A DNA stretch of 37,083 nucleotides. It comes from Deltaproteobacteria bacterium (GTDB lineage Bacteria > Desulfobacterota > Desulfobaccia > Desulfobaccales > 0-14-0-80-60-11). The position numbers were made by a program, and so were the translations under genes. This document shows, piece after piece, positions 3-14,851 of this stretch (position 1 is its first letter; the number at the start of each line of letters is the position of its first letter). The notes under the pieces were generated by a model, which saw only the letters and a list, made by a program, of their open reading frames with translations, had not been told where the DNA came from and searched no databases. The stretch spans positions 1 through 37,083 of the forward strand of contig JAUSOZ010000057.1 of NCBI GenBank assembly GCA_030655955.1, given 5' to 3'.

Positions 3-1256
3 TTCCTTTACCGGCAGGTGGCCAGCCTTAATGAGGCCGATACGTATCTGAAGCGCGTGGAAGAAATTTTCCTGGGTCATGAAAACGAGATCCTGCGCTT
101 AAAGAAAACCCCCCAGCAGCCGGAATTTGGTCGTATCCTGACCAGTTACCGGGAAATTTTGACCCAGATTAAACAACAGATTGATCGAGTCGGCCCGGAC
201 CTGGCAAATCACAATTTTGCTCCCCTGGAAGACTCCTTGCGCCACCAGGGCCAAGAACTGCTCACGATCACGGAGAACTGGGAAAAGGCCGAACGGCTCC
301 TGATTGACCAGTTGTTTCAACGGGCCATGATCCTCTTCATTATTTCCGTGGTGGTGTTCCTGGCCCTGGGGATCGTCGTGGCCTTCTACCTCTCCCGCAT
401 GCTGGTGCAGCCCCTGTTGCAGATGCAGCAGGCCATGGACAAGATCGCCCACGGCGATTTCACTCCGCTGCCGGAGCCACCCACCTCGTCGGAGGAATTC
501 TTCGCCCTGTTCCGGGCCTTCAACCGCATGATTCACGAGCTGGAGGTACATCAGGAGCAACTGGTGCAATCCCGGAAAATCGCGGCGGTGGGCACCCTGA
601 CCTCGGGGATCGCCCATGAGTTGAACAACCCCATCAATAACATCGTGCTCACGGCGGAGTCCCTGAAGGAGGATTTTCGGGACCTGTCCCAGGAGGAGGC
701 CATGGGGTTGATCCAGGATATCCTGATCCAGTCCGACCGGGCCTCCGAGATCGTCAAAGGTCTCCTGGATTTCTCCCGCGCCGAGCACCCGGAATTCGGG
801 GCGCTGTCCATCGGGGTTGTCATCCAGGATACCTTGAAGCTGGTGCGCAACCAGCTGGTTCTCTCGGGCATCAATGTGGAACAGGATATTCCCGCCGACC
901 TGCCACCCATCCGGGGCGAAAAGAAAAGCCTGCAACAGGTCTTTCTCAATTTGTTCATCAACGCCATCCAGGCTATGCTGGACGGGGGCACCCTCCAGGT
1001 CAGCGCCCACCCGTCCCCGGACGGCCAATGGATGGTCATTAACGTCAAGGACACGGGGGTGGGCATCGATCCGGAGCACCTGCCCCAGATCTTTGATCCC
1101 TTTTACACCACCAAACAGGTGGGGCGAGGCACCGGCCTGGGCCTGTCGGTGACTTACGGCATTGTGGAAAAACACGGCGGCCATATCGAGGTCAAGAGCA
1201 CCAAAGGTGCGGGCGCCACCTTCACCATGACGCTGCCCCTGAAGCTTGAGGCCTAA
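3..1256 (+). CDS. Sensor histidine kinase (TM, HAMP, HisKA, HATPase_c), 5' end truncated by window
   Basis: Frame stays open to the window edge (FLYRQVASLNE...). TM segment LFIISVVVFLALGIVVAFYL, then HAMP; H-box SGIAHELNNPINNI; N/G boxes NLFINAIQAM, DTGVGIDPEHLPQIFDPFYTTK, GTGLGLSVTYGIVEKHGG. Confidence 0.95.
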   Translation, partial: FLYRQVASLNEADTYLKRVEEIFLGHENEILRLKKTPQQPEFGRILTSYREILTQIKQQIDRVGPDLANHNFAPLEDSLRHQGQELLTITENWEKAERLLIDQLFQRAMILFIISVVVFLALGIVVAFYLSRMLVQPLLQMQQAMDKIAHGDFTPLPEPPTSSEEFFALFRAFNRMIHELEVHQEQLVQSRKIAAVGTLTSGIAHELNNPINNIVLTAESLKEDFRDLSQEEAMGLIQDILIQSDRASEIVKGLLDFSRAEHPEFGALSIGVVIQDTLKLVRNQLVLSGINVEQDIPADLPPIRGEKKSLQQVFLNLFINAIQAMLDGGTLQVSAHPSPDGQWMVINVKDTGVGIDPEHLPQIFDPFYTTKQVGRGTGLGLSVTYGIVEKHGGHIEVKSTKGAGATFTMTLPLKLEA

Positions 1257-1284
1257 CCGGCGCCGGACCGGAATCGGGAGTAGC

Positions 1285-2622
<1,338 letters not shown>

Positions 2623-2647
2623 GTCCCTGAACTCAATACACTTCTTT

Positions 2648-3280
2648 ATGGAAAAATTTCATTATATTCATAAAACCGGCAGTGGAAGATCCTACCCTCT
2701 AGAAATTGGGTGGACAGCTCAGGACATTCATAAAATCCCTGTTGATAAGAATTTGACAGAAAATGCCTGCCGATCGGGTTGCCGGTTATATGGGAGAAAT
2801 GGAGGTTGCCCTCCCTTTTCTCCAGACTTCAAACTCTTGGGGAAAAGGTTCAAAGTAGCTAATATAATTTATACCAAACTGTTAATAGCTAATTATCCTC
2901 CAAAGGTTTTGGCCGGGAGCTACTATGTTAGATGGTCCTTTATCGAAGCATTACTCACGCCATTTACCAATAAATTTGCTAAAATTCTCAACGACCATAA
3001 GGAGGGATTATTTTTATCTTCCGGATTTTGTAGAGGATGTGGAAACCAAAGATGCGCGGTAAAAGACGGCGATAAATGTCGTCATCCTTTACGCCGGACG
3101 TTTTCTTTAGAATCAACAGGCGTGATAGTTTCTGAGGTTGCAGAGAAATTCTTAGGCTTCGAGCTTTGCTGGTGGGACAGGTTTAATAAAGATTATTTTC
3201 CATCATATATGACAAAGATAGTGTCCATACTAGGCAATCAGCCCATAGATAATTCCGATATATCGGCGCTATTTAAATAA
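2648..3280 (+). CDS. DUF2284-like cysteine-rich putative metal-binding protein
   Basis: CRSGCRLYGRNGGCPPFSPDF and CRGCGNQRCAVKDGDKCRHPLRRTFSLESTGV match the DUF2284 Cys pattern by eye. AT-rich composition. Confidence 0.75.
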   Translation: MEKFHYIHKTGSGRSYPLEIGWTAQDIHKIPVDKNLTENACRSGCRLYGRNGGCPPFSPDFKLLGKRFKVANIIYTKLLIANYPPKVLAGSYYVRWSFIEALLTPFTNKFAKILNDHKEGLFLSSGFCRGCGNQRCAVKDGDKCRHPLRRTFSLESTGVIVSEVAEKFLGFELCWWDRFNKDYFPSYMTKIVSILGNQPIDNSDISALFK

Positions 3281-4356
3281 TCTATAAATGGTGCAATTTC
3301 CGGTCCTAATTTAACCATATAACCCCTTGGACAATCTGGGTCTGGACCTATATCAAGATGACCGTGCTGCCTAACCCTTTGAGCCGGGCATCTCCCTTTA
3401 CAAATATCGCTCTTTGCACATTCTGAACAAACCGAAATGTTTTGGTGGTCAATCTTTTGAAATTCCTTAAAAACCTCTGATGTACTCCATATAAGAATCA
3501 AATTTTTATCTCTTATATTCCCTGCCACAAATTCAGGGAAATGCTTAAAAGCTGGACATGGGATCACATCCCCGCCTGGGGTTATACTACAAGTCGATTT
3601 GCCGGCCTTGCAGACAGATTGTTTCACTGTCTCATCGATGAAACCCAAGAAATCCAGTGGACATCCTGCGCGGATTTTCAGCCTATCGCCATTTTTTTTC
3701 TTTAATTGAGCAACAATTTTCAAGAATTCCCACAGCTTATCGCTTGCAAGTTTAAGTTTTGCTTTATTAACCTCTCCTCGACCCTGGGGAACAAATCTGA
3801 GAAGAGCTACCTCATCAATACCTATTTTACATGCGAGCTTTAACACATTTTCAAAGAATCTAGCATTGGGCTGCATGGGGACAAAATGCGTCCCAACCCA
3901 AAATCCCATTTTCTTCGCGTTTATAATAGTTTGGCAAAGAGCGTCAAAGCTACCGGGCTTTCTCGTTATTAGATCATGGACCTCACTTGTGGCACCTTGC
4001 AAATTAAAAATGATCTTATCTAACCCTTGGCTACACAGCTTCTTCAAAAGTGCCACACTTAAAGGCTTGCATCTCCCCTTATATGAAACCCCACATGTAT
4101 AAAGCCTGGTTTCAAGGCCTTTGCTCTTGGCAAAGGCCACAATATCTAAAAGATTTCTATGTAAGGTTGGCTCCCCCCCCGAAATTTCAAGAATTTTTCC
4201 CCCAAGGGCATGAAAGTCGGAAATAATTGGTTCAATTTCTTTCCAAGTAAGCTCATCGATATGCTTTTCACAACCAGGAAAAGCTGTAGAACAATGTAGA
4301 CAATTCATAATACAGCGGTTAGTTATTTCCAAACATAATTCATTCAGGTTTGCCAT
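3238..4356 (-). CDS. Radical SAM protein with C-terminal SPASM-type Cys domain
   Basis: CIMNCLHC (CxxxCxxC), GGEPTLH; C-terminal CSITPGGDVIPCPAF...CSECAKSDICKGRC...C. ATG at 4356 preceded by GGGGAGG; the longer ORF uses an upstream TTG. Confidence 0.9.
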   Translation of the reverse strand: MANLNELCLEITNRCIMNCLHCSTAFPGCEKHIDELTWKEIEPIISDFHALGGKILEISGGEPTLHRNLLDIVAFAKSKGLETRLYTCGVSYKGRCKPLSVALLKKLCSQGLDKIIFNLQGATSEVHDLITRKPGSFDALCQTIINAKKMGFWVGTHFVPMQPNARFFENVLKLACKIGIDEVALLRFVPQGRGEVNKAKLKLASDKLWEFLKIVAQLKKKNGDRLKIRAGCPLDFLGFIDETVKQSVCKAGKSTCSITPGGDVIPCPAFKHFPEFVAGNIRDKNLILIWSTSEVFKEFQKIDHQNISVCSECAKSDICKGRCPAQRVRQHGHLDIGPDPDCPRGYMVKLGPEIAPFIDYLNSADISELSMG

Positions 4357-4376
4357 TTTTGCCTCCCCTTGATGAA

Positions 4377-5042
4377 TCAACCGCCGCCGAAAAGTTTGGT
4401 TAATATCAATATTAATATTCCTATTAAAATTCCGCCATAAATCTTAACTGCAGTTTCTACTGTTCCAAGACGGTGCGCTATTTCATGAATTGGAATCCCT
4501 GCACCCAAAAGAGGCATCATTTCCTTTGGCTCAATGTGTTGCTGTTTAAAATGATCATGTCCTTTATTGTAAATCTTTGCTCCATCTCTAATATATGTTA
4601 TAAAAAGAATAAAAGTTGGGTCTTTATATTTTAATAATACCTCAGCAGTCCCAGCATTGTAAAGCGAAAACTTAAGCCTTCCTTCAAATCCTGGGTCGAC
4701 ATGAAAACCTGAAACGTTTATTAGACCAGAGAGCTTATGCCTAGCTTTTATAGAAATAAATCCCATGCATTCTTTTGGAATTTGGACATATTCTTCTGTA
4801 ATCAATAGTGCAAAGTCGCCTGGAGCAATTTTTATAAAATTATCTTTGCTATTAAGCTTCTTCAGTTTTTTCTTGCTGCTGATAAAAGCTTCTTCTCCAA
4901 GAGAAAGCTCTAATGATGATCCTTGGATACGCTCCTCTTTAGGTCCATCTACCCATTCCGAGCTTTTCTCTTTAGGCAAAATATCTTTGATACGATCTTT
5001 GAAATCGCGGGTTGACCAAAAAGTTTTCGCTTTATCATCCAT
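4377..5042 (-). CDS. dCTP deaminase/dUTPase-superfamily-like protein with C-terminal TM anchor
   Basis: QGSSLELSLGEEAF, IAPGDFALLITEEYVQIPKECMGFISIKARHKLSGLINVSGFHVDPGFEGRLKFSLYNAG follow the Dcd/dUTPase fold pattern; C-terminal hydrophobic helix IYGGILIGILILILTKLFGGG. Confidence 0.75.
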   Translation of the reverse strand: MDDKAKTFWSTRDFKDRIKDILPKEKSSEWVDGPKEERIQGSSLELSLGEEAFISSKKKLKKLNSKDNFIKIAPGDFALLITEEYVQIPKECMGFISIKARHKLSGLINVSGFHVDPGFEGRLKFSLYNAGTAEVLLKYKDPTFILFITYIRDGAKIYNKGHDHFKQQHIEPKEMMPLLGAGIPIHEIAHRLGTVETAVKIYGGILIGILILILTKLFGGG

Positions 5043-5083
5043 TTTATAAATAACTTAATAAGTGGCTTGGCACCAAGAATTTT

Positions 5084-5461
5084 TTATTTTTTTGCTAACG
5101 CAAGAATGTCGATGGCCATAGAAAAGCAAAAAGTGAGGATTAGCAAAAGGACGCCCGCCCAAACTAATAATTTAAAAGCTTGCTGCTGAAACAAGCTTGC
5201 ATTCTCAAACCATAATCCCAGCATTCCAAAAGTTAGAAGCGAAATTGCCAATATATAACCAGTCTGAACCGAACAAATCTGAAAGCTTATTTTTGGATTA
5301 ATATTGAAAATAATAATTACAAAACCACTTAATATAATAATTGGAAATATATAATAAATAATACTCCATATAATTTCGGCAACACCTTCAACGACCTCTT
5401 TTATAATTATCGCTATGCCCCTAAAGTCTCTTTTATTGCTAAACAATTCGTGGTTTGACAT
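5084..5461 (-). CDS. Small multi-TM membrane protein, unknown function
   Basis: 125 aa with about three hydrophobic segments (IIWSIIYYIFPIIILSGFVIIIF, TGYILAISLLTFGMLGLWF, LLVWAGVLLLILTFCFSMAIDILAL); same strand as its neighbours. Confidence 0.7.
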   Translation of the reverse strand: MSNHELFSNKRDFRGIAIIIKEVVEGVAEIIWSIIYYIFPIIILSGFVIIIFNINPKISFQICSVQTGYILAISLLTFGMLGLWFENASLFQQQAFKLLVWAGVLLLILTFCFSMAIDILALAKK

Positions 5462-5546
5462 TTTTGTCTCTTAAGGAGCAATTATTTAATGTGTTTTATC
5501 TATAAAATATTTTGCAATAAAAAACGTTCATTCCTTTTAATGTAAA

Positions 5547-6014
5547 TCAAAAACCAGCAATCTTTTTTTCATAATCTATATTTACTCGCTCCACAGCCCT
5601 CTCGGCAGGCGCTAAACGCCTACGCTCCAACTGAGGGCGAATTTCTTCCAAGCATTGCTCAATGACCATCTGGCCAGAGAGTGGTTCTAAATATTTACCC
5701 TCTATTTTTACTATTATGGTATGGGCCAAGCATGCAACCCTGAGTTTGGCAAGAGGGTGGTCAATGCCATTTATCTCAATTTTAGCAACGGCTTCTCTAA
5801 TTTTCTGAAGGCTCATCCCATTATCTCTAAGTGTTTTAATTACTAGTATACAGATAATATCACGGAGTGTATATCGGCGTCTTTGGCCAGATTTTCGCGA
5901 AGGAAAAGCACCCGGCTTTATCAATCCCTGTTCGTCCCACCAGCGAAGTTTTCTTGGGGAAACCCTCGTTAATTTATAAACATCATTTGTAGTGAAATAG
6001 CTGATTTTTCTCAC
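5547..6014 (-). CDS. MerR-type HTH transcriptional regulator
   Basis: FTTNDVYKLTRVSPRKLRWWDEQGLIKP...GQRRRYTLRDIICILVIKTLRDNGMSLQKIREAV is a MerR winged-HTH. GTG start. Confidence 0.85.
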   Translation of the reverse strand: MRKISYFTTNDVYKLTRVSPRKLRWWDEQGLIKPGAFPSRKSGQRRRYTLRDIICILVIKTLRDNGMSLQKIREAVAKIEINGIDHPLAKLRVACLAHTIIVKIEGKYLEPLSGQMVIEQCLEEIRPQLERRRLAPAERAVERVNIDYEKKIAGF

Positions 6015-6022
6015 AATAATGC

Positions 6023-6096
6023 CAATTATTGATTGATAAAATTAACATAAAAACAGTATTTATGTAATTTATAATAGGCATATAAATCAATAATTG
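6023..6096. promoter_or_regulatory. 12-bp perfect inverted repeat upstream of the MerR gene, candidate operator
   Basis: CAATTATTGATT (6023-6034) and AATCAATAATTG (6085-6096), 50-bp spacer. Confidence 0.45.
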
Positions 6097-6109
6097 TCAA
6101 CAAATAAAT

Positions 6110-6132
6110 TTAGTTATAACAAAAATAACTAA
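6110..6132. promoter_or_regulatory. 8-bp perfect dyad TTAGTTAT-N7-ATAACTAA upstream of the MerR gene
   Basis: Arms 6110-6117 and 6125-6132. Confidence 0.35.
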
Positions 6133-6403
6133 CATTTTGGCGACAAATTTAGCCATCAGGAGTTAATGGGGTCTATTCTACGAGACGTTTAATAATTTTG
6201 CCCTCTTCCTCAAATCAGTAATAAATAATCCAACCAGTTTCATAATGAAACAGGCCGCAACGCCGCTATTTCCCGCCTTTCCGGCCTTTTCCGGCAAAAC
6301 GCCTTTTTCATTTTGAAACACCCCCCTTCGTCCCATTAGGATATCCCACTGTTTTTCCAGCACAATCACTGTTGGCCCGGTTGGTGCATTGCCGTCAAGG
6401 GAC

Positions 6404-6859
6404 ATGAACAAGCGGGTACTCTTAGCTATCGACCTGGACCGGCCGGATTCCCGGGCCGCCTCTTATGCGGTGCAGTTGGCGGCGCGTCTGAAATTATCCC
6501 TGGTGCTCATGGCGGTGTTCCCGGCCCGGGGCGGCGACCCCTCTGACCCCGGCGACATTTCGCTGGGGGGCCTTAAGGAAGAGCAGAGCCTGTGGCTGGG
6601 AAAGGTCCGGGAGCGCTGCCAGCAGGAAGGGGTGAACCTGGAGATCTTCCTGGCGGCCGGCGCCTTCTGCGATGAGGTCCTGGCCTTCGCCCGGGCCCAG
6701 AGCGCCTTGCAGTTCATCATTATGGGCTGGCCGGAGGATGGACGCCGGGAACAGTACCCCGGGTGCGCCGCAGCCTTAAAAAGCCTGCACCAGCACATCG
6801 GGGCCGAAATTCTCCTGGTGCGCGGCCAGGGAAAAGTGACCCGATTGACGGACCTTTGA
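6404..6859 (+). CDS. UspA-family universal stress protein
   Basis: MNKRVLLAIDLDRPDSRAASYAVQLAARLKLSLVLMAVF...; Usp fold layout. ATG at 6404. Confidence 0.8.
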   Translation: MNKRVLLAIDLDRPDSRAASYAVQLAARLKLSLVLMAVFPARGGDPSDPGDISLGGLKEEQSLWLGKVRERCQQEGVNLEIFLAAGAFCDEVLAFARAQSALQFIIMGWPEDGRREQYPGCAAALKSLHQHIGAEILLVRGQGKVTRLTDL

Positions 6860-6912
6860 GGCGGGTTTTGGGTTTTAGGTTCTGGGTCAGGAGAAGCCAA
6901 TTACATGCTTGG

Positions 6913-7147
6913 TACAGGATTTCATAAATATGCTCACGTCATATATCGCCCCCCTCACCCCAACCCTCTCCCCCCGAAGCGGGGGGAGAGGGGGTTAAAG
7001 GAACACAGGCTGGAAGCCTGTGCCACTATAGAGCATTAAATCAGTCCCATCTTTTCCCCTCGCCCCCAATGGGGGAGAGGGTCAGGGTGAGGGGGCAGTG
7101 ATCTTCACGAAGTAAGAAACACGTCACCTTATTTATGAACCACTGTA
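6913..7147. repeat. MITE-like intergenic element: imperfect terminal inverted repeats around GC-rich palindromes
   Basis: Arms ACAGgatTTCATAAATAtgctcACGT (6914-6939) and, reverse-complemented, ACAGtggTTCATAAATAaggtgACGT (7121-7146); 20/26 identical by eye. Confidence 0.55.
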
Positions 7148-7197
7148 ATTAAGTAGACCATCGTCATAACGCCACGTGAAGGAGGGGAGAGCGGCAC

Positions 7198-8130
7198 ATG
7201 TCCTGGAACCTGTATTTACCACTGGCTGGTAACAGCATCAACATCTTGCTTCTTTTTGGCCTGGGGGGAGCCGTGGGCTTTCTCTCCGGGGTGTTCGGCG
7301 TGGGGGGCGGCTTTCTCATGACCCCGCTCTTGATCATGGTGGGCATCCCGTCCACGGTGGCCGCGGCCTCGGACTCCAACCAGATTGTCGCGGCCTCCAC
7401 CTCCGCCTCCTATGCTCACTACCGCCTGGGGAACGTGGACTTCAAGATGGGGCTCTTCCTCATCATCGGCGGGCTGATCGGGGGCACCGTGGGGGTGCAA
7501 TTCATCAAGCTGCTGCGGGCCATGGGCAACGCTGACTTCGTCATCCAGATCACCTATGTGGTCATGCTGGGGGTTATCGGCTTCTACATGTTTGCGGAGA
7601 GTCTCCAGAGCCTGCGGAAAAAGCCGGTGGAAACCCCGCGGGTGGAAGCGTCCGCCAAGGTCTCCCTCTACAACCGCATGATCCAGGCCCTGCCCTACCA
7701 GATGAAATTCGAGAAATCGGGGGTGGTCCTCTCCCCTATCCTCCCCCTGGTCCTGGGGGTGTTCGTCGGCATCCTGGCGGCCATCATGGGTGTGGGCGGT
7801 GGTTTTATCATGGTGCCGGTGATGGTCTATATGCTGCGCATGCCCATGCACGTAGTAGTGGGCACCAGCCTGGTGCAAATCCTGTTTACCTGCATCAACG
7901 TCACCATCATGCAGTCGGCTACCAACCACACGGTGGACATGATCCTGGCCATCATCCTGCTTCTGGGTTCCACCCTGGGGGCCCAGTTCGGGGTGCGCCT
8001 GAGCCGGCGGCTCAAGGCCGATCAGCTCAAGATTCTCCTGGCCTCCATCGTCTTGCTGGTGATGGTGCAGATGCTGGTGAGCCTGGTGCTGCCGCCCCAT
8101 CTGCTGCTGGCGCACAAAGGCGGGCACTGA
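7198..8130 (+). CDS. Sulfite exporter TauE/SafE family membrane protein
   Basis: Duplicated GxxxGFLSGVFGVGGGFLMTPLLI and GVFVGILAAIMGVGGGFIMVPVMVYML motifs; multi-TM. Confidence 0.93.
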   Translation: MSWNLYLPLAGNSINILLLFGLGGAVGFLSGVFGVGGGFLMTPLLIMVGIPSTVAAASDSNQIVAASTSASYAHYRLGNVDFKMGLFLIIGGLIGGTVGVQFIKLLRAMGNADFVIQITYVVMLGVIGFYMFAESLQSLRKKPVETPRVEASAKVSLYNRMIQALPYQMKFEKSGVVLSPILPLVLGVFVGILAAIMGVGGGFIMVPVMVYMLRMPMHVVVGTSLVQILFTCINVTIMQSATNHTVDMILAIILLLGSTLGAQFGVRLSRRLKADQLKILLASIVLLVMVQMLVSLVLPPHLLLAHKGGH

Positions 8131-13056: not shown

Positions 13057-13929
13057 ATGACCATGAAAATTTTATTCGCTGGAGATGAACATCCCTACAG
13101 CGCCTATGCGCTCAATGAAGTAGTCCGGCTGGCCACCAACACCTGGGCCGACGTGACCCTGCTGGCGGTAGCCGCCGCCGACACCGGGGCCAAACCCGGC
13201 GAGGACCATACCCTGGCCCAGGCCTTACACGGGTACCGGGAGACTTTCCTGAGCCGCGCCGGCGGCGAGGGCTCACCCTATGCCCTGGGGGCGCCGCAGT
13301 TCGAGTGGATTCCCGTCAGGGGCGGCCAGTGGGAAGAACTGCTGGTGCACCGGGGAGCCAAAAAAGACGTGACGGTGCGCCTGAGGTACGGTAATGAGGC
13401 CCAGGAGGTCGTGGCGGAAGCCCGGGATGAAGAAAGCGACCTGATCGTGCTGGGGTGCACCAAGGGAGGGCAGTGCATCTGGCAAGGCTCGGCCCCGGTG
13501 CCCCAGAAAGTGGTCAACGATGCCGGCTGTTCCGTCCTTCTGGTCAAAGAAGAGCAGCCCATCAGCCGCATCCTGGCCTGCCTGGACCAGAGCTACATCA
13601 GCCAGGATTCCCTGGAGATGATCAACCAGATGGCCACGATTCACGGGGCTCAACTGGAATTGGTCGGGCTTTCCCAGGGTGGCGACATGAAAAAAGACGT
13701 GTACCGGCGGCTCATCGAGATCGGCGATTACTACGAGGATCGCCAGATCAAGGTGACCACGCGCTTAACCGAGATCGCCGAGTTTGAAGACTTCATCGGT
13801 AAGGAACTGCAGCAAGACCTCCTGGCCCTGTTTATGGGGAAGAAATCTTTGCTGGACCGGTTCTTTCCCCGGGATTGGGCCGGACGCTTTGTGAGCAAGT
13901 GCCAGACGTCGGTTTTGGTGATGCGATAA
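13057..13929 (+). CDS. UspA-like stress protein
   Basis: MKILFAGDEHPYSAYALNEVVRLATN...; DLIVLGCTKGG and SVLLVKEEQPISRILACLDQS Usp-type motifs. Confidence 0.8.
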   Translation: MTMKILFAGDEHPYSAYALNEVVRLATNTWADVTLLAVAAADTGAKPGEDHTLAQALHGYRETFLSRAGGEGSPYALGAPQFEWIPVRGGQWEELLVHRGAKKDVTVRLRYGNEAQEVVAEARDEESDLIVLGCTKGGQCIWQGSAPVPQKVVNDAGCSVLLVKEEQPISRILACLDQSYISQDSLEMINQMATIHGAQLELVGLSQGGDMKKDVYRRLIEIGDYYEDRQIKVTTRLTEIAEFEDFIGKELQQDLLALFMGKKSLLDRFFPRDWAGRFVSKCQTSVLVMR

Positions 13930-14002
13930 TCACAACTATAAGGTATAATGCGGAAAATCGGCCCCGGTTCCGGGCGCTCAGTAGATTCGAGAGGAGATAC
14001 CT

Positions 14003-14851
14003 ATGAAAATCCTGGTTGCGGTGGATAAAAACGAAGAGTCCCAACAGGCTCTGCGCTATACCTGCCATTTGCTGGAACATTTCGAGGCCGACGTGGACGC
14101 CCTCTACGTCAAACCCAATGTGGTGGAGTCCGTGGCGGAAACTTCCTATGCCCCTTTCACCACCCGGGAGGATGTGGAAAAGGCCATCGAAACCGAGGCG
14201 GAAAAAACCGTGGAGGAGATTTTCCAGGCCTGCGAGATCTGCCTGGGGGGCAAGGTGCCTTGTGAGCCCCTGGTGGCCGTCGGCGATCCCGCCGAGGAGA
14301 TTCTGAACCTCGCCAATGAAGGCATGTACGACCTGATCGTGCTGGGCTCCCAGGGCCGCTCCACCATCCGGGGCTTTTTGCTGGGCTCGGTGCATGCCAA
14401 GATTCTCCACCATGCCCTGCAACCGGTGCTCCTCATGCGCAATTTCCGGCCGATCCAGAAAATCCTGGTGGCCTACCGGGGGTCCCAGTGCGACCAGGGA
14501 GCCCTGGAATTCATCGCCCCGCTCTTTGCCAAGCAGAAACCGGAAATCACCATCCTGCACGTGCAGGAAACGGCATTGGGCGAAACCCCTGAAATCGCCG
14601 AGGCCTGTCTGCTCACCGGCGAGGACACCTTAAAGGCATACGGCTACACCCCCAGCAAGAAATTGGCCCAGGGCGACTTTGTGGACGAAATCCTCAAGGC
14701 CGTGGCCGTGGAACGCTATGACCTGCTGGTGCTGGGGGCCTATGGGCACAAGCGGCCCAAGTATCTGAAGATGATCAGCGACGAGGCCCTCAATCTGGTG
14801 CGCCTTTCCACCCGCCCGGTCCTGGTGTATCGGGATCAAGCTGAAACTTAG
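14003..14851 (+). CDS. Tandem UspA-domain universal stress protein
   Basis: MKILVAVDKNEESQQALRYTCHLLE; DLIVLGSQGRSTIRGFLLGSVHAKILHHALQPVLLMR; second DLLVLGAYGHKRPKYLKMISDEALNLVRLSTRPVLVYR. Confidence 0.93.
   Translation: MKILVAVDKNEESQQALRYTCHLLEHFEADVDALYVKPNVVESVAETSYAPFTTREDVEKAIETEAEKTVEEIFQACEICLGGKVPCEPLVAVGDPAEEILNLANEGMYDLIVLGSQGRSTIRGFLLGSVHAKILHHALQPVLLMRNFRPIQKILVAYRGSQCDQGALEFIAPLFAKQKPEITILHVQETALGETPEIAEACLLTGEDTLKAYGYTPSKKLAQGDFVDEILKAVAVERYDLLVLGAYGHKRPKYLKMISDEALNLVRLSTRPVLVYRDQAET

Follow-up and report, generated by a model that had tools for sequence, protein, structure and literature searches.

A horizontally acquired AT-rich island with a recurrent radical SAM, DUF2284 and membrane-anchored DCD gene set, a candidate nucleotide-centred conflict system

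The island and its genes

The window analysed here is a 37,083-nucleotide stretch of deltaproteobacterial DNA (JAUSOZ010000057.1), a single contig (C291) from a 97.7%-complete assembly, and its subject is a sharp-edged AT-rich block at 2623-6388, where G+C content is 34-42% (mean 0.381) versus ~60% elsewhere on the 37-kb contig (0.619 in the gene upstream). The initial annotation of this DNA had described such an island, with four co-directional minus-strand genes, i.e. those for a MerR regulator, a multi-pass membrane protein, a tail-anchored protein of DCD/dUTPase fold (DCD-TM) and a radical S-adenosylmethionine (radical SAM) enzyme with a SPASM domain, the last two separated by 20 nt. Open reading frames and Pfam matches agree with this description, although a fifth gene on the plus strand, encoding DUF2284, had been overlooked. 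Comparison with other genomes revealed that the linkage of the radical SAM, DUF2284, DCD-TM and small membrane protein genes is non-random.

The radical SAM/SPASM gene (3238-4356, minus strand; PF04055 2e-19, PF13186 4e-12) encodes a 372-residue enzyme of a distinct subfamily. Its ATG lies 20 nt beyond the DCD-TM stop codon, and there is an in-frame TTG upstream at 4380. The best score against the NCBIfam full-length equivalogs listed was 123 bits where 381 are required, far below all cut-offs. The AlphaFold2 model has a pLDDT of 87.8. By sequence profile the enzyme is PqqE-like, with PqqE as the closest solved structure and 5v1q and SkfB as further solved relatives, yet it falls outside the named full-length families. 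The earlier link to viperins was not upheld, as PADLOC viperin models match at only 8e-12 compared with 1e-35 for PqqE-type SPASM models, and a SPASM domain is present.

DCD-TM (4377-5042, minus strand; 221 residues, PF22769 E 2e-12) ends in a predicted transmembrane helix (4386-4442, minus strand; residues 201-219), two residues before the C-terminus. The confident AlphaFold2 model (pLDDT 88.5) shows a barrel of DCD/dUTPase type that leads into a single long helix (185-219), and the best PDB matches are the DCD-type dUTPases 8y1w and 9ln0 (Foldseek 2e-11 to 8y1w). A C-terminal transmembrane segment was present in 13 of 16 and 61 of 68 family members, and ended 1-7 residues from the C-terminus in those members of the linked clade (see below) that were scored for it. 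In an alignment of 84 members the catalytic glutamate of the deaminases (E138 in E. coli) is replaced by Ser, Ala, Thr or Gly in every case, while Lys103, His114, Asp116 (the motif-3 Asp of the dUTPase type, present in 84/84) and Asn129 are invariant and position 99 is Lys or Arg; the motif-1 Asp position 45 (D/E/T/other) and the motif-2 Ser position 101 (G/S/K/T) are variable. DCD-TM lacks the deaminase residues but has kept invariant pocket residues, carried on a membrane anchor.

Neither the window protein (60 bits) nor its relative at L020 (77.8) reaches the TIGR02274 dCTP deaminase cut-off of 92.8. A housekeeping dCTP deaminase is ruled out by the loss of the glutamate and by the absence of the family from most of the order, and with that residue missing a nucleotide-depleting deaminase is not supported either. 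dUTPase activity would still be possible, since 8y1w and 9ln0 also lack the glutamate. Most relatives in the order, a 99%-complete congener among them, have no DCD-family gene (PF22769), and the host (G000) has no second DCD or dUTPase by Pfam and no PF00692 dUTPase, so dUTP is presumably handled otherwise. The DCD search found no relatives in viral contigs, and the INPHARED phage matches listed carry ordinary Dcd/dUTPase annotations at ~30% identity or less.

DUF2284 (2648-3280, plus strand; PF10050 E 3e-19) is cysteine-rich and predicted to bind metal, with invariant cysteines in its family alignment; its gene converges with the radical SAM gene and overlaps its 3' end by 43 nt. The small membrane protein (5084-5461, minus strand; 125 residues) has 3-4 hydrophobic segments by hydropathy.

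The island is bounded on the left by a host gene for an NtrC-type response regulator (1246-2622, plus strand) and on the right by a Usp gene (6389-6859, plus strand). In a congener (G002, locus L011) all five genes are found again between these two neighbours, whereas in a sister genus (G004) the counterpart of the window's next transporter comes immediately after the response regulator (75% identical), leaving an empty site with neither island nor Usp gene. Given the occupied site, the empty site and the low G+C content, the island is an insertion and was horizontally acquired, as had been suspected. Of the 58 relatives compared, G002 alone has a closely related DCD; with 2 of the 4 genomes of the genus carrying the island genes, at 38% G+C, these are not core genes of genome-typical composition. 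The presence of dnaN and gyrB on the same contig (20759-25721) suggests that the island lies in the replication-origin region. Two more Usp genes occur at 13057-14851, near the one at the island edge.

Linkage across bacteria and archaea

Starting from plasmid homologues, we built a family alignment that found 225 DCD-TM relatives in GTDB contigs. Of these we kept 80; adding the plasmid loci and the window itself brought the comparison to 85 loci. In 17 of these a radical SAM gene of the same subfamily lies beside the DCD gene. The taxa concerned are Desulfobacterota-type metagenome-assembled genomes, Pseudomonadota, Bacillota (Halanaerobium, Frackibacter, Desulfotomaculaceae) and WOR-3 among the bacteria, and Methanoperedens and Methanofastidiosia among the archaea; the gene set thus recurs in at least five phylum-level groups, with intergenic gaps mostly of -20 to +76 nt. 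The recurrent linkage in unrelated genomes that the initial annotation had looked to was therefore found. DUF2284 is present in 9 of the 17 radical SAM-linked loci and in none of the 68 others (p 6e-8), while the 5-hydroxymethyldeoxyuridine (5-hmdU) kinase HMUDK shows nearly the opposite distribution (1/17 compared with 60/68, p 1e-10), i.e. the two arrangements are almost mutually exclusive. In the DCD tree 16 of the 17 linked proteins, including that of the window, fall in one 18-row clade (SH-aLRT 99), with L069 outside it, and the sub-clades of the radical SAM tree match the DCD tree, with the radical SAM proteins from HMUDK operons nested inside. With these statistics and matching trees, the neighbours of the homologues do not vary at random.

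Two gene orders were seen, i.e. small-DCD-radical SAM-DUF2284 and radical SAM-small-DCD-DUF2284, and 12 of the 13 tabulated loci have a small multi-transmembrane ORF at a distance of -20 to +41 nt from dcd. At L046 (WOR-3) the radical SAM gene is encoded on the other strand, one gene from the DCD gene; at L069 an HMUDK gene stands between them. At the archaeal and WOR-3 loci L026, L046 and L055, a 212-223-residue protein with no credible Pfam match lies beside DCD or the radical SAM enzyme and replaces the small protein and DUF2284. No solved structure matched DUF2284, this archaeal protein of about 220 residues or the ThyA-like proteins described below. L026, L036 and L055 also have a small two-transmembrane ORF and a 482-490-residue protein that is nuclease-like by eye. 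In the branch lacking the radical SAM gene, a helical protein of ~170-195 residues with a QxxHDxxxH-like start and no credible Pfam match lies mostly directly beside DCD-TM (L009, 4329-4916, and nine other loci). Beyond DUF2284, L012 (11345-13090) has a small ORF, an XRE regulator and a protein in which IrrE is fused to chagasin (I42), a module resembling one on the Bradyrhizobium plasmid pK03D-1.

We also used the radical SAM profile by itself to search 396 genomes from the phylum, as well as the Halanaerobium and Desulfotomaculia classes. In the 396 genomes the subfamily was separated by a clear gap (470, 333 and 316 bits, then ~180). Two new members (G057 and G108) have no DCD-TM; each is the last gene of an operon with IrrE, a ThyA-like protein (a label based on record annotation and our own reading only) and an HMUDK_hel kinase, joined in G057 by an XRE regulator (L118, 1603-6106; L119 in G108, 3016-7455). 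Of the two out-of-sample classes, the first yielded a full set in which a transposase gene separates dcd from DUF2284 (G425). In the second (G829; L136 on its contig C1, 6406-9751), the radical SAM and DUF2284 genes flank a 523-residue HD-like protein in the place of DCD-TM, between a type III restriction-modification system and IetA, so that the pair persists where the DCD part has been replaced. The Pfam HD match of this protein is below cut-off; it is possibly an alternative effector. The 298 genomes sampled from the phylum of Methanoperedens yielded no further subfamily member. As the radical SAM gene does not always accompany DCD-TM, the linkage is strong but modular, and radical SAM with DUF2284 looks like the more constant pair.

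MerR, which had been counted as part of the set, was found in only 3 of the 17 linked loci, i.e. the window, L011 (phmmer 2e-86) and L013 (3e-21), and is accessory, outside the conserved set. Its gene (5547-6014, minus strand; GTG start, MerR_1 E 1e-15) is preceded by a candidate autoregulated promoter (6045-6100, minus strand; 11/12 sigma-70 match), comprising TTGACA (6095-6100), 18 nt and TATTAT (6071-6076), and by an inverted repeat, ACATAAA-N7-TTTATGT (6045-6065), between this promoter and the MerR start. Promoter-like sites in the region were no more numerous than in shuffled sequences, so the weight for this promoter lies in L011, where the first hexamer and the repeat are kept although the leader has otherwise diverged; L013 has another palindrome in the same layout.

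Possible functions of the gene set

Genes of nucleotide metabolism and conflict recur around this family. The sister DCD-TM branch adjoins 5-hmdU-kinase, thymidylate-synthase, Nmad2 and ThsB-TIR genes, and the linked loci themselves have ThsB TIR (L014, L055), SLATT (L055), Nmad2 (L014) and ABC-3C/PDC-M68B (L022) neighbours; together with those of G829 and the IrrE module of L012 these are raw occurrences, counted without a background rate. In the DefensePredictor study, the domains newly validated as anti-phage include 5-hmdU kinase and thymidylate synthase, dNMP kinase and NMAD appear in the domain legend, and dUTPase, aGPT-pyrophosphorylase and NMAD are predicted to be defensive, while the terms "radical SAM" and "deaminase" are absent from the main text (PMC13092281). 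The DCD-TM family thus connects the radical SAM set to gene types of experimentally anti-phage systems. From the nucleotide theme, the defence-type neighbours and the DefensePredictor domains, we infer that this is a conflict system whose membrane receptor reads nucleotides. Judged from sequence and gene order, there is about an even chance that the island is an acquired copy of a mobile, nucleotide-centred conflict system, compact and conserved, and most likely directed against phage. As the gene set recurs across distant bacteria and archaea, sometimes in anti-virus islands, it is probably an undescribed nucleotide-based immune or conflict system; our search of the open-licence PubMed Central literature found no description of the gene set.

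In the mechanism that we propose, the radical SAM enzyme and DUF2284 would form an enzymatic core, with DCD-TM and the small membrane protein as sensor/effector. The small molecule that the enzyme would make or alter is most probably derived from a (deoxy)nucleotide or a pyrimidine, and DUF2284 would contribute the iron-sulphur/electron chemistry. The DCD domain, which we take to be trimeric as in the known DCD/dUTPase families, would bind a nucleotide, be it dUTP/dTTP, the radical SAM product or a pool disturbed by phage. Its C-terminal helices would relay this state to the membrane, and there the small protein would act with DCD-TM as effector. A more ambitious version, which we offer tentatively, is a new class of nucleotide-signalling immunity in which the SPASM enzyme and DUF2284 produce a new modified nucleotide, read by a catalytically altered, membrane-anchored dUTPase-fold receptor that with its small partner opens or disrupts the membrane. 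If the proposed mechanism is right, it would add radical-SAM chemistry beyond viperin and a dUTPase-fold receptor to prokaryotic nucleotide immunity, and would give a testable role to DUF2284, a family that only two papers in the open-licence literature searched mention.

Several results weigh against a conflict system of this kind. Defence-island neighbours had been anticipated and were found at several loci (L014, L022, L055, G829), but most linked loci lie outside obvious islands, and the part of the window examined showed no defence gene. The radical SAM members in G057 and G108 lack DCD-TM, as noted above, and conservation in DCD is partly selected for, since the search patterns contained NVSGFHVD. 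Homology between the deltaproteobacterial and Bacillota-type small membrane proteins could not be demonstrated (hhalign 2%), nor therefore common ancestry across the groups. Finally, peptides are commoner substrates of SPASM radical SAM enzymes than nucleotides.

This last point leads to the alternative that survives best, though we think it unlikely: the radical SAM enzyme would mature the small membrane protein, or else the tail of DCD-TM, into a membrane-active product resembling ribosomally synthesised and post-translationally modified peptides, with the DCD domain as regulator. The solved relatives PqqE, 5v1q and SkfB and the small ORF adjoining dcd in most loci fit this proposal. However, neither a conserved core nor a candidate motif is common to the small proteins of the different groups, the enzyme persists where no small protein was found (in G829, L069 and G057/G108, and upstream of dcd in the archaeal loci), and its neighbours are of nucleotide type (HMUDK, HD-like, DCD).

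Two further proposals seem to us improbable, and about equally so. DCD-TM could be a working dUTPase held at the membrane, and the island, rather than a conflict system, an accessory for metabolism or stress that serves pool sanitation, consistent with the invariant catalytic Asp, with best structural matches that are themselves dUTPases lacking the deaminase glutamate, and with a host that has no other such enzyme by Pfam. Yet most of the order, even the 99%-complete congener, does without DCD-family genes, the motif-1 Asp and motif-2 Ser vary, and the radical SAM/DUF2284 linkage, the membrane anchor and the exchange for an HD-like protein would be left unexplained. Alternatively the radical SAM enzyme could complete a modified thymidine on element or host DNA, as in hypermodified-T phages, with DCD-TM guarding precursor pools; the subfamily does follow HMUDK_hel kinases in G057, G108 and L069, but no HMUDK lies near the other 16 linked DCDs or in the window's island, and a ThyA-like/IrrE module occurs only at L012 among linked DCD loci. 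Chance juxtaposition of unrelated AT-rich cargo, for which one could cite the presence of the genes in only half of the genus genomes, is contradicted by the linkage statistics, the matching trees and the complete out-of-sample set, and is very improbable.

Comparison with known systems

The window's radical SAM enzyme shares the CxxxCxxC motif, the SPASM cysteines and the overall fold with PqqE and other SPASM enzymes, but forms its own subfamily, has nucleotide-type partner genes and no consistent precursor peptide. With the prokaryotic viperins (pVips) the set has in common a radical SAM enzyme and the idea of nucleotide-linked defence, but the similarity is weak, a SPASM domain is present and the set contains no nucleotide kinase. 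DCD-TM has the beta-barrel fold, VDPG motif and invariant Asp and Asn of the dCTP deaminases and DCD-family dUTPases (TIGR02274; 8y1w, 9ln0, 4xjc, 1xs1); it differs in that the deaminase glutamate is never present and the catalytic Ser and Arg positions are variable, and its own features are an invariant K-x2-G-L-[IV]-N-[VI]-SGFHVDP and the membrane anchor.

The network of DCD-TM, HMUDK_hel, thymidylate synthase, Nmad2 and ThsB-TIR genes involves the same tail-anchored DCD family; the window's radical SAM subfamily occurs in two HMUDK operons and at L069, and TIR and Nmad2 accompany both branches, but in the window's branch radical SAM, DUF2284 and the small membrane protein replace HMUDK, thymidylate synthase and IrrE. 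The SLATT/small-transmembrane effector modules of nucleotide-centric conflict systems likewise pair a sensor or nucleotide enzyme with a small membrane protein, whereas the window's small protein has no SLATT match and its candidate sensor would be the DCD domain.

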